Shown here piece after piece: positions 587-24,652 of a stretch of DNA of 55,777 bases. The first letter of the stretch is position 1, and each line of letters starts with the position of its first letter. The stretch covers positions 1-55,777 of the forward strand of contig CALRBT010000005.1 in NCBI GenBank assembly GCA_943354475.1, in the 5' to 3' direction. The stretch is from Parcubacteria group bacterium. Lineage in GTDB: Bacteria > Patescibacteriota > Minisyncoccia > Phycocordibacterales > CALRBT01. Both the position numbers and the translations under genes were made by a program. A model generated the notes under the pieces. The model was not told where the DNA came from. It saw only the letters and a program-made list of their open reading frames with translations, and ran no database searches.

Positions 587-3500
587 TTAGATGGTGACAG
601 AAAGGGTCTGAGAATCCGTTGGGAGTTCTTTTACCTTGTAGTCATTCAACCAGTCAGCTGTAGTTTCGCTATGGCTGTTAGCTGAACGATCTGACCATAC
701 AAATGAAGGTGTTTGTGTTCCTGCGGCACCAGCAATTACAGAATAGATATCTGGAGTTGCGATACTTGATGTAGGAGCTGCAACACTGACGCTTAGGTAG
801 GTAAGACCTGACCATGTTCCGCCAATAGTGCTCTTCAAGCTGTATGTCTCTGATGAAGAAACTTGCTGTTCAGAATCAGCTACGAAGCTAATGGTTCCAC
901 TCGTTAGAGTAGTTCCGAGAGCGTCGAGGCCTCCAGCCACAGAAGCTGTTGAAGTAGCGAATGTACCAGAAATCACGTTGTTATTGCTATCAACCAATTG
1001 CATAGTACTTGTCGCACCAACAGTAACTGCTGCTGTCTTTGTGATTGTGAACACTATTTTCTTCCATCCAATCTGGTTAGCGGCGTCGGCATCAACTTTA
1101 ACCTTCGCAAGAACCTTTCCAGATCCAGGTGAAAGAATGCTAGATGCCTGAGCAACCATGTTTACGGTAGGCTTACTCTTGACTACGTACATGTTGCTTG
1201 CTGCTTGGTCTGTGGCATATTCTGCCTCAGTTCCACCAGTCCATGGCTGATACTTGAAGCCTTCGAGTGTTACCTTAACATTTGCTGTTGAGGTAGCTGA
1301 ACCAGAAGAAACGGTGTTGAGGTCAAGATAGACATCAACCAATGCTCCTGCTGAATCGTTTGAAGGAATCTTCAAAGCTAGGCCTGTTGTAGTACCGGTA
1401 AATACTGAGTTGAAGGAACTAATTGTTCCAATTTCTGTACTACCATTCTTAAGTACTGCTCGTACGATGGCACCTGAAGAGTTTGCGTTCGTTACCTTAA
1501 GTGCAATATCAGTAACTTTGAAGTCCTGATTAACTGCAGTAAGTCTAAATGAAGCAACTTTCTTTCCTGTGTTTCCACCAACAAGTAATGTTGTTGCTAC
1601 TGATGAATCAGTAAGCGCGGTAGCTGCAACGCTTCCGGCAGCAGCGGTGATTGTCTGGCCTACAACTGCACCTGTTGATACAGATGAGTTACTTGCTGAC
1701 GTACCAGCGACTGTTAGAGAAGGAATTGTTGTGCTTCCAGTAAGGAAGGTTGAACTAAGTGTTCCGTACACTTCAAATGCCATAGTTGCACCTGCAGCCA
1801 AAGGCTCGCTGATGTTCCATGATTGTGAAGATGCACCTGTTGCTTTTACACTGGTTGTCTTTGTGCCGTATTTGACATAAAGATCAGTTGTAGAAGCAGC
1901 TACAGAATCTCCTCCAAGAGCGAGGGTGATTGTGTTGAGATTTACAGACTCAGCTGAGTTTGCAGTTACTCGGAAATCACCAATCTTGTAGGCGGTCTGA
2001 GGAACAACAACTGACTGACTACCGTATGCGCTGTACTTAGAACCAGTAACTGCTCCGACTGAAACTGTTCGAGTATTACCTGAAACAGCTGAGTTTGAGA
2101 AGTAAGTAAGGGCACTTGTTCGTTGTAAGTTACTTGATCCAGCAACGATTGTTGCGGTGATAGTATCACCAGAAACAATTGTGTGCTGAGTTACATCGTT
2201 GTCGTAGATATCAGCTTTTACTTCCAAAGTAACAGGTGTTCCTGGAGTTACTTTCAAAGCAGAACCTAGACTAAATGCAGTTCCGGCAATGGCACCAGAA
2301 ATGTTCTGGGTACTACCAACCTGTACTCCATTAGCAAAGAGTGTTCCGTTTCGGAGACTTACTGTCTGTCCTGCGACAGTTGTTTTTACAGTAAGAGTCT
2401 CTACCTTGATAGCTTCACCAGCTGCCTTAAGCTCAAATGTAGCAAGAACTACGTTTGAAGCATCAGGATTGATGTTACCTGAAGGTGAATCGGTCTTCTT
2501 TGTAATTGTAAGGGTTCCTGCGCTAATTGTCTGAACTCCTGATGTTTGTGCAGAGAATGTTCCGGCAGTTATCGTAGATAGAATTGGCTGTTTAAGTTCA
2601 CTATCAACAAGCATCACATCTGAAGCCTGTCGTAGAGAGAAGCTAAATGTTCGGGTAGAACCACCAACAATGTCAGCCATAAGCTTAATTGTTCGTGAAC
2701 CTGTAGCTAATCGTACCGGACTTGCGCTGAGATCGAATGATACGTATCCATTTGAATCAAGTGAAGCAACAGTGTTTCCAACCTTTACGCTATCGATAAA
2801 TAGCTCAAAGTTTTGAAGATCACTTGTTGTAACTGATCCAATTTGTCGGAAAGTAATGTTCTTAAGATCAAGAGCTCGTGTTCCCACGCTCAATTGTTCC
2901 TCCCATACTTTATAATCATCCTGAGGGTCAACATCCGCTGTTGTAGGAGCAAGTCCTGCAGTAACGAATACACCCGTAGCAAGTGTTGCAGCTGCAACAG
3001 ATTGAGTTCCTCCCATTATTGGGAATGTTCCTGATGCAGGAACACTTGACTCAACTGAAGTAAGCTGTACTCCAACAATCTGTCCAGCAGTTGAATCGAG
3101 GATGTCAGCTTTTACTGAAATCACAACAGAAGCTCCTGCAGGAACCATGAAGAGTCCTGATGGGTCATTGAAAGTAATAACTCCACTTGAAACTGTTGCA
3201 GAGTCAGCTGCTCGCTTTGAACCATTGAACAAGTTCACATTAACAAGTACTGAATCGTTTGAGATTCCAATTCGATTCAAGACAACTTTCGTTACCTTAG
3301 CCTCGGCACTTGTAGTGTTTGTGAAGGTGAAGTGTGCCAAGTCAGCAAGAGCTTGTCCTTGGATGATTGCACCGTTTGAAGGTGAATCAGGTGAAAGTGA
3401 AACCATAACTGTTGTTCCTGTTGGAACTACAGTTGTAGTACAAGGCTTTCCAGTAGTTGAGCTGTATGCAGCTCCTCCTGTACAACCTGTATCAACTACA

Positions 3501-3964
3501 GGTGTAACAACTACTACTCCGCCCATGGTGTTAAGCTTTGCTCTGGTAACTGGACCAACATAGCCCGCTACTGGAGAAATTCCGTGCTTTGACTGAAATT
3601 TCATAACAGCGGCCTTTGTGGCAGGACCAAAGTAACTTGTTTCATTACCAGGTGAGCCTGCTCCTGTTGAAGCAACCTTTGTATCAGCACTCATATTGAG
3701 TACTTTCTGAAGGTTCATTACATCAACCCCGGTTGAACCGACTGTAAGGTTCTTAGAGAAAGTGTAACTACTTGTTGAAGTCGTTGATGATGACCCCTGA
3801 AGCGCAGCTAGCTGCGTAGTCAGTTGTGCAATCTGTGCTTGTAGGTCAGATAACGCGTCAGCATGCGCAGGGGCCACTGAGGCTCCGAGAAACATGCTCA
3901 CTGCGAAAACAATTCCTACAAAACCAGCAACTACCTTCGTAGTGTTTGATTTTAATAACAACAT
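587..3964 (-). CDS. large secreted/surface protein with peptidoglycan-binding (PG_binding_1-like) domain
   Basis: Signal peptide MLLLKSNTTKVVAGFVGIVFAVSMFLGASVAPAHA, coiled coil, then VGSTGVDVMNLQKVLN...YFGPATKAAVMKFQSKHGI...GYVGPVTRAKLN; long Ser/Thr/Val-rich beta-type body. Start moved 48 codons in from the ORF start to the signal peptide Met. Confidence 0.8.
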   Translation of the reverse strand: MLLLKSNTTKVVAGFVGIVFAVSMFLGASVAPAHADALSDLQAQIAQLTTQLAALQGSSSTTSTSSYTFSKNLTVGSTGVDVMNLQKVLNMSADTKVASTGAGSPGNETSYFGPATKAAVMKFQSKHGISPVAGYVGPVTRAKLNTMGGVVVVTPVVDTGCTGGAAYSSTTGKPCTTTVVPTGTTVMVSLSPDSPSNGAIIQGQALADLAHFTFTNTTSAEAKVTKVVLNRIGISNDSVLVNVNLFNGSKRAADSATVSSGVITFNDPSGLFMVPAGASVVISVKADILDSTAGQIVGVQLTSVESSVPASGTFPIMGGTQSVAAATLATGVFVTAGLAPTTADVDPQDDYKVWEEQLSVGTRALDLKNITFRQIGSVTTSDLQNFELFIDSVKVGNTVASLDSNGYVSFDLSASPVRLATGSRTIKLMADIVGGSTRTFSFSLRQASDVMLVDSELKQPILSTITAGTFSAQTSGVQTISAGTLTITKKTDSPSGNINPDASNVVLATFELKAAGEAIKVETLTVKTTVAGQTVSLRNGTLFANGVQVGSTQNISGAIAGTAFSLGSALKVTPGTPVTLEVKADIYDNDVTQHTIVSGDTITATIVAGSSNLQRTSALTYFSNSAVSGNTRTVSVGAVTGSKYSAYGSQSVVVPQTAYKIGDFRVTANSAESVNLNTITLALGGDSVAASTTDLYVKYGTKTTSVKATGASSQSWNISEPLAAGATMAFEVYGTLSSTFLTGSTTIPSLTVAGTSASNSSVSTGAVVGQTITAAAGSVAATALTDSSVATTLLVGGNTGKKVASFRLTAVNQDFKVTDIALKVTNANSSGAIVRAVLKNGSTEIGTISSFNSVFTGTTTGLALKIPSNDSAGALVDVYLDLNTVSSGSATSTANVKVTLEGFKYQPWTGGTEAEYATDQAASNMYVVKSKPTVNMVAQASSILSPGSGKVLAKVKVDADAANQIGWKKIVFTITKTAAVTVGATSTMQLVDSNNNVISGTFATSTASVAGGLDALGTTLTSGTISFVADSEQQVSSSETYSLKSTIGGTWSGLTYLSVSVAAPTSSIATPDIYSVIAGAAGTQTPSFVWSDRSANSHSETTADWLNDYKVKELPTDSQTLSVTI

Positions 3965-4685
3965 AATTTGTTTTCTTTTTATAATTTGTCTTTCAAGTCC
4001 TCCCCTCTTTTTAAAGATGAGTTGGACCAAAAAACGGGAACTTGAAGTTATTATTTTTCGACTAAAAAAATAATAGTACCTCAAGGATAAACTACTAACA
4101 TGAAACAAAACATGATTCTTTTCTGTTTCAGATATTAAGAGACCATGCTTTGCATCCTCATACTATTCTTTATCACTCCTTATGATTTTCGACACAGGGT
4201 AATAAAGATAGTGGACAATGTTTTAGGGAAATTCTTTCATTAAACTTACCGCAACAGAAAAAGGAATGCTGAAATTTCCGCCTTAAATTCATTAAGCCGA
4301 AAATATTTTTTGGTGATCGTTTTAAGATCATTAAAGAAACTTTTTTCTATTCAATTTTCAAAGATCTTTCGTTCTTTTTCTCGTGTAGAGATTACTACAC
4401 TTTTCAGTCTCTCTGTCGATTTACAGTTACTTTAAATGTACATCGTTTTACGTACATTTATAATCTGTAAAGTAGATTATAGTATTTCGAAGAGAGGCCT
4501 GCAAAAAATAAATTGTGGATAACTAAAATAAGGGTTTTTTGGAACCTCTCATAGAGCACATCCACAAACCAAAAGTAACCTTTTTGGACAAAAAAGTCAA
4601 CTAAATCCACCCTCAGTAATAATATGGAAAAGTAGCAGGAAAAAGGTCGTTTGGGTCTTGAATTTTGAATGGTCTAAATATCTAT

Positions 4686-5531
4686 CTATTTATCTGTACG
4701 GAGCGAATATCGACTCCATCTACGCTCCCCTTCTTTCTTTAGGACATTCTCATCAACCATTGCTAAAAGCTCCCGTTGGAGCGTCTTCTCACTACAGTCC
4801 TTTATAAAGACTGATATGTCCTTTATAGAAACCTCCCCACTTTTTTGAATAGCGCTTATTATAAGATTTCTTCTATTTTTTTTATTAACTCCGCCAGAAG
4901 ATTCACCTCCAGTGAAAGTGGCTTTTTTCTCATTCCCAGCCCCTGATATATGTCCTTTATAAGAAATGTCTTTTATGCCACGGAGAGGTTTCTTGTCGCC
5001 AAGTACCTTATAGTAACTTCCCTTATCGTCGTTACTCCTGTTTATTAACTCCGAAAAAATTGAGTTTTGATTTAACTTATTAAGGAAAAAACCCTCGTCA
5101 AAATACTGACTTTTTTGTACTGAATCTGGCTTAGGAACAAGATCGAGTAGGGCTTCTATTTCAACCAAGAGAACCTTTTGGTTCATTGGTGAAAGCATCC
5201 CCGCAACAGAAAGAATTTCTAGTAGAGATTTTATATCAACAAATACCTTATTTAGTTCTAGAAGAAGTGTTTTTTGCTTTTCTGTAATTAGACTAAAGGA
5301 CAGCATCCCTGAGGTTCTTACAAGATCAATGGATAACGATCTGATACGCCATTTAACTGGTTCTTGTGAGTCGAATAAATTGGATACTAAGTGTATGGCA
5401 GCTGCTATTCTTTCTGTTTTTTTTAGAAAAAAATCTAGAAGATCCTGGTTTCCAAAAAAACCTTGTGTATCAAGGTTATTCCACGCCTTATCAATTAAAT
5501 TGTCCTTTATATTTCCAGCTTCCTCTTTCAT
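4686..5531 (-). CDS. DNA-binding protein: N-terminal helical bundle, motif-rich linker, C-terminal DeoR-like HTH
   Basis: C-terminus KKNRRNLIISAIQKSGEVSIKDISVFIKDCSEKTLQRELLAMVDENVLKKEGERRWSRYSL reads as a winged-HTH; N-terminus is predicted helical. Confidence 0.75.
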   Translation of the reverse strand: MKEEAGNIKDNLIDKAWNNLDTQGFFGNQDLLDFFLKKTERIAAAIHLVSNLFDSQEPVKWRIRSLSIDLVRTSGMLSFSLITEKQKTLLLELNKVFVDIKSLLEILSVAGMLSPMNQKVLLVEIEALLDLVPKPDSVQKSQYFDEGFFLNKLNQNSIFSELINRSNDDKGSYYKVLGDKKPLRGIKDISYKGHISGAGNEKKATFTGGESSGGVNKKNRRNLIISAIQKSGEVSIKDISVFIKDCSEKTLQRELLAMVDENVLKKEGERRWSRYSLRTDK

Positions 5532-5600
5532 TGTCTTTTATATTATATGTTGTGTCTTTTACTGAATTTTTATCAAATTTTGTCCATTATATAAAGGACT
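4797..5600. repeat. recurrent word TATAAAGGACA (TGTCCTTTATA on + strand) and near copies
   Basis: + strand: 4797-4806 gtcctttata, 4817-4827 tgtcctttata, 4951-4961 tgtcctttata, 4967-4977 tgtcttttatg, 5501-5511 tgtcctttata, 5532-5542 tgtcttttata, 5553-5563 tgtcttttact, 5581-5600 tgtccattatataaaggact (dyad); opposite orientation 5292-5302 actaaaggaca. Confidence 0.85.
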
Positions 5601-5627
5601 TGCTTTAAGGTAAAGCTCTTCTATATT
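5600..5627 (+). promoter_or_regulatory. candidate sigma70-type promoter TTGCTT-16 bp-TATATT
   Basis: -35 ttgctt 5600-5605, -10 tatatt 5622-5627; abuts the TATAAAGGAC dyad. Confidence 0.5.
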
Positions 5628-5631
5628 GGTC

Positions 5632-5723
5632 AGCCGTGAATACCTTGTCAGCGTGGCTAGCGAGGAATAGGCATAAAACCTGTTTTATTATCGGCGACTT
5701 TTCAAGCTTATCGCCCTTTTTTT
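5632..5723 (+). ncRNA. candidate small RNA, ~90 nt, ending in intrinsic terminator
   Basis: Promoter upstream, internal hairpin ATAAAAC-CT-GTTTTAT, terminal imperfect hairpin GGCGA...TCGCC followed by CTTTTTTT; no ORF. Confidence 0.45.
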
Positions 5724-5880
5724 GTTATCTATCAACACATTCACCTGATAGATTACGATAATTTTCTAAATCAAATCAATGACGTTGTTTTAGTACATAG
5801 CTACTTTAAAAACTTCTCAGCAACAATAAGGATATCTGCAGTATTCTATGTTAAAATGAATCTGAAATTTTTAAACAAAT

Positions 5881-8175
5881 ATGGCCAAAAAAGATTCTGA
5901 GGACTCAAAAGAGAAGGGTGATAAAAAAAAGAAATCCGCCAAAGAACCTGAGAGTAGTTTCTTAGGGAAATTACCCGAGAAAACTTTGCGTGGAGTTTTT
6001 GCGGTGCTCTTGTTCATCGTTGCGACATTCTTCATACTCTCTCCTTTTGGAATAGCAGGGCCTGCCGGAAATAAGTTATTCGAGCTCGTCACACTACTTC
6101 TGGGTTACGGTTACTATCTTCTACCGATCCTTAGTCTCATGCTCGCAGTTTCATTTTTACAGGAAAAGGAGCGGCACTTTGCTATAGTAAAAACGATTGG
6201 ATCAATTTTATTTTTCCTATCAGGGATTGGTATCATCACCTTAGCATTACCTGAACACGGAGGAATTGTTGGAGGAATTATCACCTCTCCTCTTATTGCA
6301 CTTTTTGACATCTACATACCATGGATCATATTGACCGGACTCCTTACTATTTCTTTCCTTGTTATGTTTGAAGCAGAACTAAAAATCGGAAACATCCTCT
6401 TCCCTATCCGCCTATACAAGCAATGGAAGGAACGTAAGAATGCTCTAAATACAGTACCAGTTATTGGAAACCCTTCTCAAACACTAACCACTCAGGAGGA
6501 GAAGAAAATGGATGAAAAAATAGAAGAGAGCGAGATCGCTTCAAAAGCCAAGGGGGATGGCGCAAAGGATTCTGGAGACAGGAGATCAGAAAAAGAAGTG
6601 GCGAAAGGAGGTGAAGCTGACGCAGGATTTTTAACCAACTTTGTTAGCTCTACCCCGTTTACCCCACCACCCCTATCTTTACTTGAGGGTGATCGTGGCA
6701 AGCCAGGAGTTGGCGATATCAAGGCAAATGCTAATCTCATTAAAAGAACATTTCAAAACTTTGGAATTGACGTTGAGATGGATGAGATCTCAATAGGTCC
6801 ATCAATTACCAGGTATTCATTGAAACCTGCTGAAGGAGTCAAGCTTTCCCGAATCGTTGCCCTTCAGAGCAACCTTGAGCTAGCCTTAGCTGCGCACCCC
6901 ATCCGTATCGAAGCCCCTATTCCAGGTAAATCATTGGTGGGTATTGAAATTCCCAATACCACCAAAACGACAGTTGGACTCGGCACACTACTTTCAAGTG
7001 AGGAGTACCAGAACTCACCGAAACCACTTCTTGTTTCTCTTGGTAAAGGAATTTCTGGAAAATCTTATTTTGCCGACATTGCAAAGATGCCACATCTCCT
7101 CATTGCAGGAGCAACAGGTTCTGGAAAATCAGTCACCGTACATGCAATTGTAAACTCTCTCCTCTATCGAAACTCACCGGAACAACTTCGCCTCATCATG
7201 ATTGACCCAAAACGTGTAGAGCTTACCCTCTATAATAAAATTCCGCACCTCTTAACTCCTGTTATTACCGATGCAAAAAAGACTATTATGGCCTTGAAAT
7301 GGGCAGCAAAAGAAATGGACCGACGATACAATATCCTTGAAGCTGAAGCTGTCCGGGATATCGACTCGTACCACAAAAACGTTGTTGTCCCTGCCTACAA
7401 TAAATCAAAGAAAGAACCTGGCAACGACGGCGCCCCCGCAACACTGCCAGAAGCAATGCCTTACATCGTGATCATTATCGATGAACTAGCGGATATTATG
7501 CAAGCGTACCCAAGAGAGCTCGAGAGTTCAATTGTTCGACTAGCTCAAATGAGTCGCGCAGTTGGAATTCACCTCATTCTATCAACACAGAGACCATCAG
7601 TTAATGTCATTACAGGTCTTATCAAAGCAAACGTGCCATCGAGAATTGCTCTCCAGGTTGCTTCCCAAATTGATTCCAGAACCATTCTCGATACTAGTGG
7701 GGCTGAGAAACTTCTTGGTGCTGGAGATATGCTCTATCTTTCAGGAGACATGTCTAAACCACAACGTATCCAGTCGGCATTTATTACAGAAACCGAGACC
7801 AAAAATGTGGTAAAATTCCTTGTTGACGCATACAAAGATGAGATTCCTCAAACAATTGAATTTGCTCAGAATAACGGAATTGAGATTGAAAAGAATAGCA
7901 TTTTCGACGCAATGGATAGCAGTGATGGAGACATGGATGAAGACGACCTTTACGAAGAAGCGCGGCAAATTGTTGTTGATTCAGGAATTGCTGCAACTTC
8001 ATACTTACAAAGAAAGCTTCGTGTTGGGTATGCCAGAGCAGCGAGACTTATGGATATTCTTGAAGAACGCGGCGTTATTGGACCAGCTGACGGTTCGAAA
8101 CGACGTGAAGTAATTGGTGCAAAACCAAAAGAGGATCCCCAGGAAGAGCTCTCTGGCACAGCCCCTACGTTTTAA
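5881..8175 (+). CDS. ftsK: DNA translocase FtsK/SpoIIIE
   Basis: N-terminal TM helices, Walker A GATGSGKS, VIIIDELADIM, C-terminal gamma winged-helix ATSYLQRKLRVGYARAARLMDILEERGVIGP. Confidence 0.95.
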   Translation: MAKKDSEDSKEKGDKKKKSAKEPESSFLGKLPEKTLRGVFAVLLFIVATFFILSPFGIAGPAGNKLFELVTLLLGYGYYLLPILSLMLAVSFLQEKERHFAIVKTIGSILFFLSGIGIITLALPEHGGIVGGIITSPLIALFDIYIPWIILTGLLTISFLVMFEAELKIGNILFPIRLYKQWKERKNALNTVPVIGNPSQTLTTQEEKKMDEKIEESEIASKAKGDGAKDSGDRRSEKEVAKGGEADAGFLTNFVSSTPFTPPPLSLLEGDRGKPGVGDIKANANLIKRTFQNFGIDVEMDEISIGPSITRYSLKPAEGVKLSRIVALQSNLELALAAHPIRIEAPIPGKSLVGIEIPNTTKTTVGLGTLLSSEEYQNSPKPLLVSLGKGISGKSYFADIAKMPHLLIAGATGSGKSVTVHAIVNSLLYRNSPEQLRLIMIDPKRVELTLYNKIPHLLTPVITDAKKTIMALKWAAKEMDRRYNILEAEAVRDIDSYHKNVVVPAYNKSKKEPGNDGAPATLPEAMPYIVIIIDELADIMQAYPRELESSIVRLAQMSRAVGIHLILSTQRPSVNVITGLIKANVPSRIALQVASQIDSRTILDTSGAEKLLGAGDMLYLSGDMSKPQRIQSAFITETETKNVVKFLVDAYKDEIPQTIEFAQNNGIEIEKNSIFDAMDSSDGDMDEDDLYEEARQIVVDSGIAATSYLQRKLRVGYARAARLMDILEERGVIGPADGSKRREVIGAKPKEDPQEELSGTAPTF

Positions 8176-18510: not shown

Positions 18511-20445
18511 TTAAGGGGTTACGTTTCCGTCAAATGTCTGTGCACCAACGTCTCCTGTGGTAGTAGTTAGTGTCTGTCCAAAGCCTTGAAGTTTTATCTT
18601 AGTAAACTGGTCTTCTCCAGTTACGACAGGATTCTTGATTACTTCAGGGGAACTCCCAATCTGACTAACACTTGGCAATATGGAAACCTGGAAAGCTGCC
18701 ACCCTCCCAACACTTCCCGTTTGCCTTAAGTCTCCGATATTCCACGTAACTGTTTTTGAATTCTGATCAAACGAGATGTCTTCACCTGCTGGATTTTTAA
18801 CCCCGAGCCATTTCACATAGTTTGGGAGTTGTGCTTCCACCCTAGTGCCTCGCACTATATTTGATGAATTGAGAACTGTAAAGTACACCGTGTACGTTGT
18901 CTCTTTTTCCGCCTTTGGAGGTATCGGACCGGTGTTGGTAAACGGTACGTTGAGGTGAGAAATCCTGGTGTTAAGCAAGAGCTGTGAAGAGAATTTGACT
19001 GTCTTTGAAGCGGTAGCGTTAATTTCCTCCGGTGCGTTCGTATCTCCTACTCGTCTTCCTTTGGCGCTAAGCGCAAGGGAAATTGAGGCATTCTTTAGTC
19101 CAGAAGAGCTCAGTGTCTGTATCGGAAGTGTTGCAAAGTTGAATGTCGCCCTTCCACTCTCTCCTGGTTCAATACGGGCAAGATTTGGAATATTGCTCTT
19201 GTCCCAAATGATTGAGTTACTGAGAGATTGATAGAAACCTTGGTTTGCCTCAACAGAGGCCTTATCAAGAGATGCTCCTGAAAAAGCGACTTGGATGGAT
19301 GCATCCAGAATTGGAGTTGGAAGATTATTACTCCAAGTGATTTCTCCGCGAATCATTTTACCAAAACTAGAAGCGTGTTCTGCCGCACCGTCGCCATCGA
19401 TAGTTAGGTCAACACCAAGAAAAGGTTTTTTAATGATAATTGATCTAGAAAGAGCAGTGAAGGTAGTTTCTAAATTCTTTTCGTTATCTTGACTTTGGAG
19501 TCCAGAAGAGAATTTGAAAATCCTCTCTTCTTCATCCTGGCCTTGGAGCGTCCCCACGAGGCGAATCGTCTTTGTCGTCCCTGGAGCAATGTCTCCAAGT
19601 GTCCAAATATTGTTATCAAAAGCTGGTTTTGGCGTCGCCTCCTTAAACTGGAAACCAAATGGATACTCTGCTTTAAGCAAAACGTTTTGCACAACAGATG
19701 TTGAGTTTGAGGTGATCGTAAAAGTAAAATCAAAAATCTGTCCTGCTGAAATTTCTGTAATAGAGTCGACTGCCACCCGTATCGGTGAAGCATTCATCAG
19801 AATGTCGTAATTAGCGGATTTTGAAAATGTTGCATTTGATCCACTCACTCGGTACTCAAGAAGAAGTCGTATCGTCCTCTTGTCGTTCTCTTCACCAAAA
19901 AGGACCGCTTTTTCGGTTCGTTGGATAATCGCCCCTGATGCCAAGTCACCAATCGTCTCAATACTGCGAGGAAGTGGTGTGGCAAGATTGGTGACACTAC
20001 GTGTGCCGTCTGGATATTCAACAGTCAGCTTTGCACCAAGGAGCGGTATACTATTTTTATTACGAAGCGTTACCGTGAAAGAGAGTGGTTCCCCTCCTCC
20101 AATTGAAATAGGTCCAGTAACACCAAGTTCGATTTTTTCGGCAGAAATTGTGTTTCCTTTTCCATAAAAAAGAAATCCTGAAAAGCCAAGTGCACCAACA
20201 AAAAAAATAACTGAAACAAATAGTAATTTTTGCATAAAGGTAAAGCGAGATGTCGTTGAGGGTTTCTCTGGTAATACCAGTTCCTCACGTCGCCATTCTT
20301 CGGCAACTCCATAACTCTTCTCGTGTAATTCTTCCGCATCAAATCTATCTCTCTCTACCCCTTTCTGTGAGTAGAGTCGTTTTTTCAGCTCTTCAATACG
20401 GCTTTTATCCTCATTTTGATTGGTGCGTCCAGGATTAGGTTCCAT
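18511..20445 (-). CDS. single-TM protein with tandem beta-sandwich (DUF11-like) domains
   Basis: TM near LLFVSVIFFVGALGFSGFLFYG; extracellular repeats such as FTVTLRNKNSIPLLGAKLTVEYP. Confidence 0.7.
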   Translation of the reverse strand: MEPNPGRTNQNEDKSRIEELKKRLYSQKGVERDRFDAEELHEKSYGVAEEWRREELVLPEKPSTTSRFTFMQKLLFVSVIFFVGALGFSGFLFYGKGNTISAEKIELGVTGPISIGGGEPLSFTVTLRNKNSIPLLGAKLTVEYPDGTRSVTNLATPLPRSIETIGDLASGAIIQRTEKAVLFGEENDKRTIRLLLEYRVSGSNATFSKSANYDILMNASPIRVAVDSITEISAGQIFDFTFTITSNSTSVVQNVLLKAEYPFGFQFKEATPKPAFDNNIWTLGDIAPGTTKTIRLVGTLQGQDEEERIFKFSSGLQSQDNEKNLETTFTALSRSIIIKKPFLGVDLTIDGDGAAEHASSFGKMIRGEITWSNNLPTPILDASIQVAFSGASLDKASVEANQGFYQSLSNSIIWDKSNIPNLARIEPGESGRATFNFATLPIQTLSSSGLKNASISLALSAKGRRVGDTNAPEEINATASKTVKFSSQLLLNTRISHLNVPFTNTGPIPPKAEKETTYTVYFTVLNSSNIVRGTRVEAQLPNYVKWLGVKNPAGEDISFDQNSKTVTWNIGDLRQTGSVGRVAAFQVSILPSVSQIGSSPEVIKNPVVTGEDQFTKIKLQGFGQTLTTTTGDVGAQTFDGNVTP

Positions 20446-20573: not shown

Positions 20574-21167
20574 TTACAGATGACTCTCACGTAATGACTG
20601 ATTGATTTCAAAAAGCGCCTTCTCGTGACAAGTATTCATTTCATCAATAAGTATCCGATTAAAATGAGTAGCCTGTACGAATCGATCTAGCTCATTATTT
20701 GGCGCAAAGTAACCTAGATGATACAGAATCTTCATAATCATAATGTATTCAAAATTTCGCAATTCATCTTTTGAAAACATCTCTAGACTTAAAAAATCCA
20801 AACTACTTTCAAGGAGTGCGTACAGTTCAATCTGAGGTTCTTCTCCGTGAAGTAAACGTCGGAGTAGCGTAAAAAAGCGAACGATGAGCAGCCGCTCCTC
20901 TCGCCTTGTCTCAAAATTCTTCCAGACACTATCTGGATTACCTGCATTAATTAAGCGCCAGATTTCCTTGCCTCGGACCAATGAGACATCACTCTGACAA
21001 TAGTCCTGCAGAGAAAATCTCAGTTTTGATTTCAGATGTCTCGCTCCGGTCGCTTGGGCACTAAGAAGGCCGAACTCTTTGGTAAAGATGGTGAGAAAAC
21101 GATTTGCTTCGCCGGAGTTGGTTCCTGAGAGGATAAATGCCTTGGTATGGTAAATATGCCTGGACAT
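20574..21167 (-). CDS. recO: DNA repair protein RecO
   Basis: HTKAFILSGTNSGEANRFLTIFTKEFGLLSAQATGARHLKSKLRFSLQDY; overlaps ileS stop. Confidence 0.85.
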   Translation of the reverse strand: MSRHIYHTKAFILSGTNSGEANRFLTIFTKEFGLLSAQATGARHLKSKLRFSLQDYCQSDVSLVRGKEIWRLINAGNPDSVWKNFETRREERLLIVRFFTLLRRLLHGEEPQIELYALLESSLDFLSLEMFSKDELRNFEYIMIMKILYHLGYFAPNNELDRFVQATHFNRILIDEMNTCHEKALFEINQSLRESHL

Positions 21168-24100
21168 TACATCAATGTAACTTTGAACACGAAATCTCCA
21201 ACAAGAATTTCCCCACCGTCATTATCCCCATACTCAACAGCACTTGCTAATACCGTCCTTTTAATCTGTTCTTCAAATTTTTTCAACAATAATTGTCCCT
21301 CTTCTGTAGTGACAATTAACAACTTAACTTTATCATTTGGATTTAATCCTTTCTGCTTTCGCAATTCCTGAATTCCTCGAGTGAATTCACGGACATCTCC
21401 TTCCTCTTTAAGCTCTGGGGTAATTGTTACATCTAAGAAAACTGTGCGGTCTAATCCCTCACCACCAAAGGAAATATGTTTAACATTTAACTCATCTTTT
21501 ATTAACTCTAGCAATGCTTCATTTCCTTTTAGCGCTTGATTGTAGATCGTTAATTCCCCGAGTGGCTGCCTGACAACAATCTTTGCTCGCGATCTCGCCT
21601 CAAGTCCCAGTGTTACTAACTCTCTGACTTGCTTCATTTCATCAACAATATCAATCTTAAGATTTAATTTTGACTCTGGCCAACTAGCTAAGTGCACACT
21701 CTCGACCTCATCTTCAGTCTTAAGCTCAAGATAAAGATACTCAGCAAAGAATGGCATAGACGGTGCCATCAATTTTGCATACTCCTTGAGCACAAATTGT
21801 AGCGTACTCAAGGCTTTCTGTTTGTCCGCCAAATCATCGCCCTTGAGTCGATCCCTTGATCTGCGCAAATACCACACCGAAAGATCATCAACGAAAGCCA
21901 TCAGTGGTCTTGTCGCCCTATCTAGTTCATAAACCTCCATACCAGAGGTGACTTCGAGAATGAGTTGGTTGAGTCTTACTAATATCCAACGATCAAGGAC
22001 ATTATCTGATGTGTCTGAGGCGTCAACTGAAGCATCTTTGTAGAGCTTGTAAAACGAGAGAACGTTATCGAGCTTGCCAATAACCTTGTTAGCGGCTTCG
22101 GCAACCCCCTTCTCAAAGAAGTTAAGGTCTTCTGATTTCATCAATTGAGACGAGAGAAGATAATACCTCATCGCGTCAACTCCATATTTATCAAAAAGAA
22201 GTTGTGGATCAGGAAAATTATTTTTAGACTTAGACATTTTCTGACCATCTTCAGCAAGAATTGTTCCTGTAGTTACCACATTCTTAAACGACACCTTATC
22301 GAAAAGTAGTACAGAGAGGGTGTGTAGGTAATAGAACCACGTGCGTGTTTGTGCTATATACTCCGCGATAAAGTCAGCTGGGAAGTTATCATGGAACCAT
22401 TCCTTCCTCTCGAACGGATAATGATTGGCGGCAAATGGCATTGCACCCGACTCAAACCAACAATCAAAGACTTCTGGAGTTCTCGTCATGTCGCCTCCAC
22501 AGTCACAGCTAAGTGATACCTCATCGATATAAGGTCGGTGAAGATCTAGCTCATAATTTCCATTGTGTGGACGCACAGTAAATGACAGCAGTTGAATTTC
22601 ACCATTCTTGATAAAGTCACCATCTTTGCCCCACAACTCTATTGCCTTTTGAGCATCAAGTGCAGCTGCAACAGCCTGTATAAGCCAGCCAACGTATTCG
22701 TGTCCAACAATTAAAATATTTTTGTTTTTGTACTTTGTGTCTATTTCATAAAGAAATTCTCCGAGTCGCTTTTTCATTTGGAGAAGATTCTCTCCTCCTT
22801 CTGGTACTTTTGTAAATCGCTCCTCGTAATCTTTGAAGAAATTATGGTACTCGTCAACTGACTTTCCATCAAACTCACCGGTATTGATTTCACTCAAACG
22901 ACTATCGGTAACGACAGAGTCAGTCTCCAGACCTAATTCTCTTGCAACAATTTCTGCCGTCTCTTGGGTGCGCAAAAACGGAGAGACAAAAACCATATCA
23001 ATCTTTTTCTCTTTGAGAAGAGCGCTTGATTCGAGCACTTGTTCCTTCCCTTTTTCTGTAAGATGAGCGACTCCGGGAGTTTTTGAATCAACGACTTTTT
23101 TTACATTACTTTCAGCTTCGCCATGTCGCATTACAAAATATTGATTACCAGTCTTCCTAGTCAGGTCTCCGAGTTCATCAACAGAGGCGACGAATATTTG
23201 TTTGTGACAGGATGCACACCTCCAAATTGGTAATGGGGATGCCCAATAACGATTTCTTGAAATATTCCAGTCAGGTGCTCCTTGAACAATATTTTTAAAA
23301 CGCCCCTCCTTTAGATGTCCTGGTACCCAGTTTATCTTTTCATTAAGTCCTACTATGTTTTCCTTCTTCTTATTTACAGCCACAAACCATGCTGGAATTG
23401 CATAGTAATAAAGCGGTGTCTCACACCTAAAACAGTGTGGATATGAGTGAATGATCTTTTCTTTTGCAAAAAGATATCCTCGATGCGCAAGACTTTTTAT
23501 TATCTCAATATCAGTTCTCTGATGATCATCCTTGGGTTTAATCAGTAATCCTTTAAAATCAACAACTTCGTCTTTGAAACGTCCATCGTCCCCGACATGC
23601 CAAACAATGGGAATGTTTTTTTCCTTTGCAAGTTCCATATCTTCTTCCCCGTATGCTGGAGCTAGGTGCACAATTCCTGTCCCACTATCATCTGCAACAT
23701 ACGGAGCACTGTACACCTTCCAGGCATTTTCTTTATTTGGAAAGTTCTTGTCTAGAAAATAATCAAAAACTGGCTTGTACGATTTTCCTACGATCTCTTT
23801 ACCCTTGAATGTACTGACAATATTTGCGCCGTCAGGAAACACTTTATCAAGTAGTTTCTTACCAACAATGTACATTCCACCATCAGCTGAGACTTTCACA
23901 TATTCAATTTCTTCACCAACAGCGGCCGCCATATTTCCTGGAAGTGTCCACGGAGTAGTCGTCCACGCCAAGAGATAGGTTCCTGGTTCATCAACCAATT
24001 CAAATTTAACGGTTACTGAAATATCTGTAATATCCTTATAACTATTATCCATAGCAATTTCAGAATTTGCTATAGGTGTTTCGCAACGAGGGCAGTATGG

Positions 24101-24652
24101 CAATACTCTTGTTCCTTCATAGACTAGTCCTTTTTTGTTTAGCTCGCCAAGAGCATACCAAACTGACTCTATATACGAGTTATCCATTGTTTTGTATGAG
24201 CCATCAAAATCAACCCATCTACCCATTCTGTCAACGGTTTTTTTCCAATCGTGAACAAAGGTTAACACCTTACTTCGAGCGTAATCATTAAACTTTCCAA
24301 TGCCATAAGCTTCAATTTCTTTTTTCCCAGAAATTTTTAAATCTTTCTCAACAATATTTTCTATAGGTAGCCCGTGGCAATCCCATCCCCAACGACGTTC
24401 GACATATTTACCTCGCATTGTTTGATAACGTGGAACGGCATCTTTAATAGTACTGGCCAGAATGTGTCCATAGTGAGGCAACCCTGTAGCGAATGGTGGA
24501 CCATCATAAAAAACGTAAGAATTCTGAGGATCATTTTTCTTAAGCGACTTTTCAAAAATCTTGTTATCATCCCAAAATTTCAAAATCTCCTCCTCCCGCA
24601 GAGCGCCAGCGCTTTTCTCCACTTTTTCTGTTTGGTCTTTATTTTGAGCCAT
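21167..24652 (-). CDS. ileS: isoleucyl-tRNA synthetase with inserted histidine-phosphatase (PGAM-like) domain
   Basis: GLPHYGHILASTIKD and KMSKSKNNFPDP signatures; insert at ~22546-23146 with VMRHGEAESN, SPFLRTQETAEIV, NILIVGHEY. Confidence 0.95.
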   Translation of the reverse strand: MAQNKDQTEKVEKSAGALREEEILKFWDDNKIFEKSLKKNDPQNSYVFYDGPPFATGLPHYGHILASTIKDAVPRYQTMRGKYVERRWGWDCHGLPIENIVEKDLKISGKKEIEAYGIGKFNDYARSKVLTFVHDWKKTVDRMGRWVDFDGSYKTMDNSYIESVWYALGELNKKGLVYEGTRVLPYCPRCETPIANSEIAMDNSYKDITDISVTVKFELVDEPGTYLLAWTTTPWTLPGNMAAAVGEEIEYVKVSADGGMYIVGKKLLDKVFPDGANIVSTFKGKEIVGKSYKPVFDYFLDKNFPNKENAWKVYSAPYVADDSGTGIVHLAPAYGEEDMELAKEKNIPIVWHVGDDGRFKDEVVDFKGLLIKPKDDHQRTDIEIIKSLAHRGYLFAKEKIIHSYPHCFRCETPLYYYAIPAWFVAVNKKKENIVGLNEKINWVPGHLKEGRFKNIVQGAPDWNISRNRYWASPLPIWRCASCHKQIFVASVDELGDLTRKTGNQYFVMRHGEAESNVKKVVDSKTPGVAHLTEKGKEQVLESSALLKEKKIDMVFVSPFLRTQETAEIVARELGLETDSVVTDSRLSEINTGEFDGKSVDEYHNFFKDYEERFTKVPEGGENLLQMKKRLGEFLYEIDTKYKNKNILIVGHEYVGWLIQAVAAALDAQKAIELWGKDGDFIKNGEIQLLSFTVRPHNGNYELDLHRPYIDEVSLSCDCGGDMTRTPEVFDCWFESGAMPFAANHYPFERKEWFHDNFPADFIAEYIAQTRTWFYYLHTLSVLLFDKVSFKNVVTTGTILAEDGQKMSKSKNNFPDPQLLFDKYGVDAMRYYLLSSQLMKSEDLNFFEKGVAEAANKVIGKLDNVLSFYKLYKDASVDASDTSDNVLDRWILVRLNQLILEVTSGMEVYELDRATRPLMAFVDDLSVWYLRRSRDRLKGDDLADKQKALSTLQFVLKEYAKLMAPSMPFFAEYLYLELKTEDEVESVHLASWPESKLNLKIDIVDEMKQVRELVTLGLEARSRAKIVVRQPLGELTIYNQALKGNEALLELIKDELNVKHISFGGEGLDRTVFLDVTITPELKEEGDVREFTRGIQELRKQKGLNPNDKVKLLIVTTEEGQLLLKKFEEQIKRTVLASAVEYGDNDGGEILVGDFVFKVTLM

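Follow-up and report, generated by a model that had tools for sequence, protein, structure and literature searches.

A histidine phosphatase domain inserted in the CP3 zinc hairpin of isoleucyl-tRNA synthetase in Patescibacteria

Aminoacyl-tRNA synthetases with appended domains are already known. In mycobacterial MutT1, a Nudix domain is joined to a second domain that is a histidine phosphatase (HP). The Nudix domain of that protein is treated in PMC11784022, and a fusion of ATP sulfurylase with an HP is described for one Sulfolobus genome (PMC11237513). The trans-editing factors YbaK and ProXp are found either fused or free-standing (reviewed in PMC7373986). In yeast isoleucyl-tRNA synthetase (IleRS), CP3 comprises residues 459-526 and the CP2–CP3 linker is ARDWNVSRNRYWG (PMC7955072); the CP3 boundaries used here are taken from this source.

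The insert and its host synthetase

In the window (the whole 55,777-nucleotide stretch of DNA that was analysed), ileS is a single uninterrupted frame on the minus strand (21167..24652, 1161 aa) that contains the whole interval flagged earlier, and profile searches, AlphaFold2 and Foldseek identify its product as a type-2-like IleRS with an inserted HP. The protein scores 855.7 bits against the NCBIfam ileS model TIGR00392 (cutoff 621.4), and Pfam places tRNA-synt_1 stretches on both sides of a His_Phos_1 match, followed by Anticodon_1. The original prediction had located an HP domain of about 200 aa within IleRS at 22546-23146 and proposed a domain search, which confirmed it: His_Phos_1 matches aa 506-668 with 101.6 bits (cutoff 21.7, E=5.7e-29). 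The insert, a branch 1 HP with its C-terminal linker, spans aa 503-702 (22547..23146, minus strand), an assignment made from Pfam, AlphaFold2 and Foldseek.

These 200 residues lie within the CP3 zinc knuckle, between the two pairs of zinc ligands. A CxxC (C479 and C482; 23207..23218, minus strand) forms the first half of the zinc site upstream of the insert, and a CxC (C716 and C718; 22499..22507, minus strand) forms the second half downstream. All four ligands are retained, in columns that are nearly invariant in the IleRS alignment, and KMSKS is conserved; the window counterpart of the yeast CP2–CP3 linker is APDWNISRNRYWAS. Because this is the sole ileS of the genome (about 786 kb, 98% complete), the enzyme must presumably charge tRNA-Ile. 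GC content is 0.398 in the insert, compared with 0.396 and 0.411 in the ileS flanks. Misassembly, named at the outset as a possible source of error, is excluded, since dozens of independently obtained assemblies carry an insert at this site. Elsewhere in the window, a gene between glyS and recO (18511-20445, minus strand) encodes 644 aa that include DUF11 repeats and a hydrophobic segment; its product is likely a surface protein.

AlphaFold2 modeling of the full protein from an alignment of 42 IleRS gave a mean pLDDT of 90.6 and a pTM of 0.83, with pLDDT values of about 90 or more across most of the insert. Structure prediction had been suggested for the HP domain in particular, which on its own folded confidently (pLDDT 94.4, pTM 0.91). 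In Foldseek searches, the synthetase body matched IleRS2 8c8u from Priestia and yeast IleRS 8wnd best (E 5e-88, TM 0.73/0.82), supporting the earlier assignment of a type-2 host in the form of a type-2-like enzyme. The HP domain matched CobC, phosphoserine phosphatase 1, PhoE, glucosyl-3-phosphoglycerate phosphatase and a riboflavin-pathway phosphatase with a probability of 1.00, at 19-26% identity and TM values of about 0.76-0.82. None of the NCBIfam equivalogs was reached at its cutoff (CobC, 70.5 vs 162.9; PspA, 58.3 vs 350; dPGM_arch, 79.8 vs 225; SixA also far under). With no curated functional subfamily reached, what can be read from the fold is the chemistry, hydrolysis of a phosphomonoester via a phosphohistidine, but not the substrate.

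The appearance of dPGM_arch among the closest NCBIfam models, and the fact that the window's own genome has an enolase and lacks an iPGM-type metalloenzyme, would fit an IleRS-borne HP that supplies a missing phosphoglycerate mutase or other glycolytic step. However, the dPGM_arch score falls well below its cutoff, enolase is absent from 10 of 25 insert-bearing near-complete genomes, and one genome (G132) has a genuine dPGM–pyruvate kinase fusion beside enolase as well as the IleRS-borne HP, so that we regard this role as extremely improbable. That fusion, a dPGM-type HP joined to a pyruvate kinase-like part, lies directly upstream of enolase (L187, G132:C2, 2728-4182). The enolase of the window's own genome is divergent (G000:C10:18648-19436), and lower glycolysis there looks incomplete or unusual. 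In tests of ALTERNATIVES, phosphoglycerate mutase, replacement of pyrophosphatase and reversal of HipA action were all disfavoured as general explanations. A substitute for soluble pyrophosphatase was rejected: the window's own genome encodes the family I enzyme (PF00719), as do 19 of the 32 genomes tested, and its occurrence shows no clear relation to that of the insert.

Conservation of the catalytic residues

The RHG motif, second arginine and GHE motif noted in the original prediction were confirmed as R509, H510, R561 and H651. On the minus strand, R509 and H510 (23123..23128) are the phosphate-pocket arginine and the phosphoryl-accepting histidine, R561 in SPFLR (22970..22972) is the second phosphate-pocket arginine, E588 (22889..22891) is the putative general acid, and H651 (22700..22702) is the second catalytic histidine. 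All five positions are invariant in 42 inserts that share 31-51% identity with that of the window. A wider set of 109 synthetase-associated HPs gave a similar picture: the R-H pair is invariant in every copy with the stretch present, R561 is invariant, E588 is glutamate in 97%, and H651 is histidine in 99%. The full catalytic set is found in 107 of these 109 copies, the two exceptions being one masked sequence and one ValRS copy with E->D and H->S changes.

By entropy, the five catalytic columns rank 1, 2, 4, 7 and 11 of 180 in the alignment of 109 HPs; across all columns, the median identity is about 37%. As judged from these alignments, such top-ranked catalytic columns in a divergent domain are the signature of selection for activity. 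The earlier suggestion that the phosphatase may be active can accordingly be strengthened, with loss of the catalytic residues confined to so few homologues: the inserted domain is probably an active phosphomonoesterase. In the proposed mechanism, R509, R561 and H651 would form a pocket in which a phosphomonoester transfers its phosphoryl group to H510; the leaving group would be protonated by E588, and water would then free the phosphate.

A purely structural role, in which a permissive loop was expanded by a degenerate domain, could draw on the CP3 HP of one IleRS (L046, G373), which has no clear match over its N-terminal part, and on a ValRS copy that has lost the second histidine (L044). 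Set against the finding that the catalytic columns are the best conserved within otherwise divergent domains, this explanation is scarcely credible. The same L046 IleRS also has an insertion of about 190 aa in the CP1 editing region (around aa 257-467), with no Pfam match.

Editing hydrolyses an aminoacyl ester and removes no phosphate, whereas enzymes of the HP family act on phosphomonoesters. Classical proofreading, which had been raised as a possible role, is therefore chemically unlikely.

Distribution, further sites and a free-standing counterpart

A survey of the phylogenetic distribution had also been proposed, and 380 Patescibacteria genomes were searched with a 264-aa probe that covers the insert plus the adjoining synthetase sequence on both sides. 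At the loci retrieved, frames and inserts were then verified. Among the matches listed, insert-bearing IleRS was found in at least 58 of the 380 genomes, comprising at least 16 of 17 in the same order, at least 9 of 15 in the rest of the class and at least 33 of 348 elsewhere. In the best 80 loci from a scan of GTDB contigs, inserts occur in Nomurabacteria, Wolfebacteria, Yanofskybacteria, Paceibacterota, Peregrinibacteria and Peribacteria, and 62 IleRS frames without insert come mostly from Clostridia and other phyla, with a few from Patescibacteria. These 80 best loci suggest that the insert is absent outside Patescibacteria. Two Clostridia loci (L105 and L120) looked full length in tblastn and were rejected as carriers, being ordinary insert-less IleRS. 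The insert is present in a locus labelled Spirochaetia (L074), a label that is doubtful because the locus is on a short contig of a 400-kb assembly. In the tree of IleRS bodies, an insert-less IleRS from a Micrarchaeota archaeon MAG (L118, JAOAKR010000014.1) was placed among those of Patescibacteria, which suggests gene transfer or a binning error.

Peregrinibacteria-type IleRS mostly have two tandem HPs at the CP3 site. The L034 enzyme has three HPs: one in CP3, a second just past the WFESG...HYPF stretch, and a third where the anticodon-binding region begins. This third position also bears an HP in L047 and L039. In the 1422-aa L039 enzyme (G046), the second position, after the WFESG region, is occupied by a GNAT acetyltransferase (aa 637-735), with the HP further on. 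The insertion sites seem to accept different catalytic domains.

One reading of this exchange is detoxification, with the HP, or the GNAT in some homologues, disarming, at the target itself, synthetase inhibitors that are phosphorylated or resemble adenylates. In its favour, a GNAT stands at site 2 of L039, where L034 has an HP, and NCBIfam includes a model for IleRS with a GNAT domain; moreover, acetyltransferases and HIT hydrolases are reported to confer resistance to microcin-C type inhibitors (PMC3817062, PMC7157772). Phylum-wide conservation nevertheless fits a housekeeping function better than a resistance trait, and PADLOC returned no match, by which a defence system was rejected as well. 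No inhibitor is known to require phosphomonoester hydrolysis at IleRS or ValRS, and we consider detoxification highly improbable.

ValRS is the closest paralogue of IleRS, and LeuRS shares the same editing chemistry. HPs were found in eight ValRS with equivalog scores above cutoff and, by similarity, in one more (L186), at the CP3 equivalent or at the second position, with two in tandem in L040. They are rare, occurring in 3 of 153 genomes in one sample. Among the matches listed, no such insert was seen in LeuRS, MetRS or other large enzymes, apart from a 486-aa dPGM–pyruvate kinase fusion.

In four genomes (G274, G349, G433 and G412), a lone HP gene lies directly upstream of an insert-less ileS on the same strand. 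The loci are L069 (HP 1289-1918, ileS 1923-4820), L153 (HP 3958-4530, ileS 4545-7445), L181 (HP 3755-4309, ileS 4306-7110, with an ATGA overlap) and L182 (HP 3840-4406, ileS 4400-7288); the reading frames overlap by ATGA in G433 and by 7 bp in G412. If genes were placed at random, the estimated chance of finding an HP gene in this position and orientation would be on the order of one in a thousand per genome. The adjacent HPs are 184-209 aa long and score 191-210 bits with the HMM, whereas other lone HPs among the loci examined score at most 128 bits, except L154 (170 bits) and L155 (160 bits). L154 is away from ileS and adjoins a helicase gene. In L155 (G332:C1, 3926-8000), a row of genes encodes ArgRS, the lone HP, a small protein, an HD-domain-like protein that looks similar to ppGpp hydrolases, and IleRS, the HP being about 0.9 kb from ileS.

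The hosts of the four adjacent genes occupy four separate places in the IleRS body tree, on whose well-supported branches the insert must have been gained or lost at least nine times. A quick HP tree nested two of the adjacent genes among site-1 inserts, and site-1 HPs together with the adjacent genes are compatible with one clade (AU test, p-AU 0.81). Several independent origins of site-1 HPs are unsupported, as one clade fits at least as well. Swapping of HP domains between IleRS bodies (L016/L077 vs the window) was suggested by identities and the quick tree and is unsupported by the AU test (p 0.535).

Of 55 class genomes, 21 have no His_Phos_1 match other than the IleRS-borne HP. This counts in favour of the partnership proposed below, and it also makes a general-purpose phosphatase the strongest rival to a function in tRNA charging: the HP would be a cytosolic nutrient or salvage enzyme carried on an abundant essential protein, and its nearest folds, PhoE, CobC and PSP1, are broad or metabolic phosphatases. 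Yet it is specifically in IleRS and ValRS that inserts recur, often more than one per enzyme and at sites that correspond between the two, and free-standing copies stay beside ileS; in G412 and G433 the ileS-adjacent gene is itself the only His_Phos_1 match. In addition, G132, G025, G406, G413 and G441 keep the IleRS-borne HP despite having other lone HPs. On balance, a general phosphatase unrelated to tRNA charging appears unlikely. The only other histidine phosphatase of the window's own genome (L001, G000:C2:26904-27482) may be anchored in the membrane, as its N-terminal part contains a hydrophobic stretch.

Functional interpretation and comparison with known systems

We favour, with moderate confidence, a bifunctional enzyme in which a working type-2-like IleRS bears, in its CP3 zinc hairpin, a live phosphomonoesterase of the PhoE/CobC/phosphoserine-phosphatase-1 kind that cooperates functionally with the synthetase. 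In most Paceibacteria this partnership would be covalent, through the insert, and in others it would run through an ileS-coupled gene. A functional link is unusually likely because insertion into the Ile and Val enzymes is repeated, reaches up to three copies, and involves the same domain as the neighbouring gene. Carried on IleRS, and elsewhere on ValRS, the HP would stay close to branched-chain aminoacylation or at a fixed ratio to it. To judge from the repeated pairing, in cis or through overlapping genes, its substrate presumably forms close to this reaction or must be kept away from it. The most likely task would be clearing a small phosphorylated, nucleotide-like ligand or by-product; we infer such a substrate from the structural relatives, all of them small-molecule phosphatases, and from the ATP, AMP and adenylates that IleRS and ValRS handle. 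Several observations weigh against a partnership: some close relatives (G257, G205 and G282) have neither insert nor adjacent HP, the related lone HP of L154 is not linked to ileS, LeuRS has no insert among the matches listed, and linked transcription with fixed stoichiometry could be the sole benefit.

The HP might instead strip phosphate from the synthetase (phospho-His or phospho-Ser) or from a tRNA end, restoring charging capacity. HipA_C kinases phosphorylate a synthetase in E. coli; they were found in none of the 32 genomes tested, on which basis HipA-type kinase reversal was rejected. Branch-1 HPs can act on proteins, as in the case of SixA, which dephosphorylates a phosphohistidine of Ndk (PMC12934123), and the CP2–CP3 linker beside the insert lines the pocket in which reveromycin A partially mimics bound tRNA (PMC7955072). 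The nearest solved relatives are, however, small-molecule phosphatases, and there is no reason for tRNA repair in the Ile and Val enzymes only, leaving regulation or repair improbable.

More broadly, a Patescibacteria phosphatase step dedicated to Ile/Val tRNA charging, provided in cis by up to three HPs or in trans by the ileS-coupled gene, and serving quality control or by-product clearing with no described counterpart, is a possibility that we advance tentatively. The HP is retained in genomes that shed most else, and the pairing points to an undescribed partnership of tRNA charging and phosphate chemistry in many tiny Patescibacteria. One domain, one catalytic mutation and one in vitro assay offer a concrete handle on their poorly understood physiology. 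A full-text search of open-licence papers found no report of a phosphatase inside a synthetase, although one may exist elsewhere, and the word phosphatase is absent from a 2020 synthetase review (PMC7373986).

Compared with the known type-2 IleRS of Priestia megaterium (8c8u) and yeast (8wnd), the window enzyme has the whole body, zinc ligands, KMSKS and CP1 editing region in common, and it alone has a 200-aa CP3 phosphatase. The HP shares its fold and full catalytic set with CobC alpha-ribazole phosphatase, PhoE and phosphoserine phosphatase 1, but it is embedded in a synthetase and scores below the equivalog cutoffs. The enzymes of NCBIfam NF040702, IleRS with an N-acetyltransferase domain, likewise combine IleRS with an extra catalytic domain; theirs is a GNAT rather than a phosphatase, and the window protein scores 274 against a cutoff of 1999. 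YbaK and ProXp resemble the present system in providing a helper activity that accompanies a synthetase in cis or in trans, with the difference that they remove amino acids from tRNA, whereas the HP removes phosphate. MutT1 and the Sulfolobus ATP sulfurylase fusion also join an HP to a nucleotide- or adenylate-handling enzyme, but these fusions are terminal or sporadic. What appears to be new in Patescibacteria is a phosphatase insert that is recurrent within synthetases, predicted to be active, sometimes multiple, and matched by a counterpart in trans.
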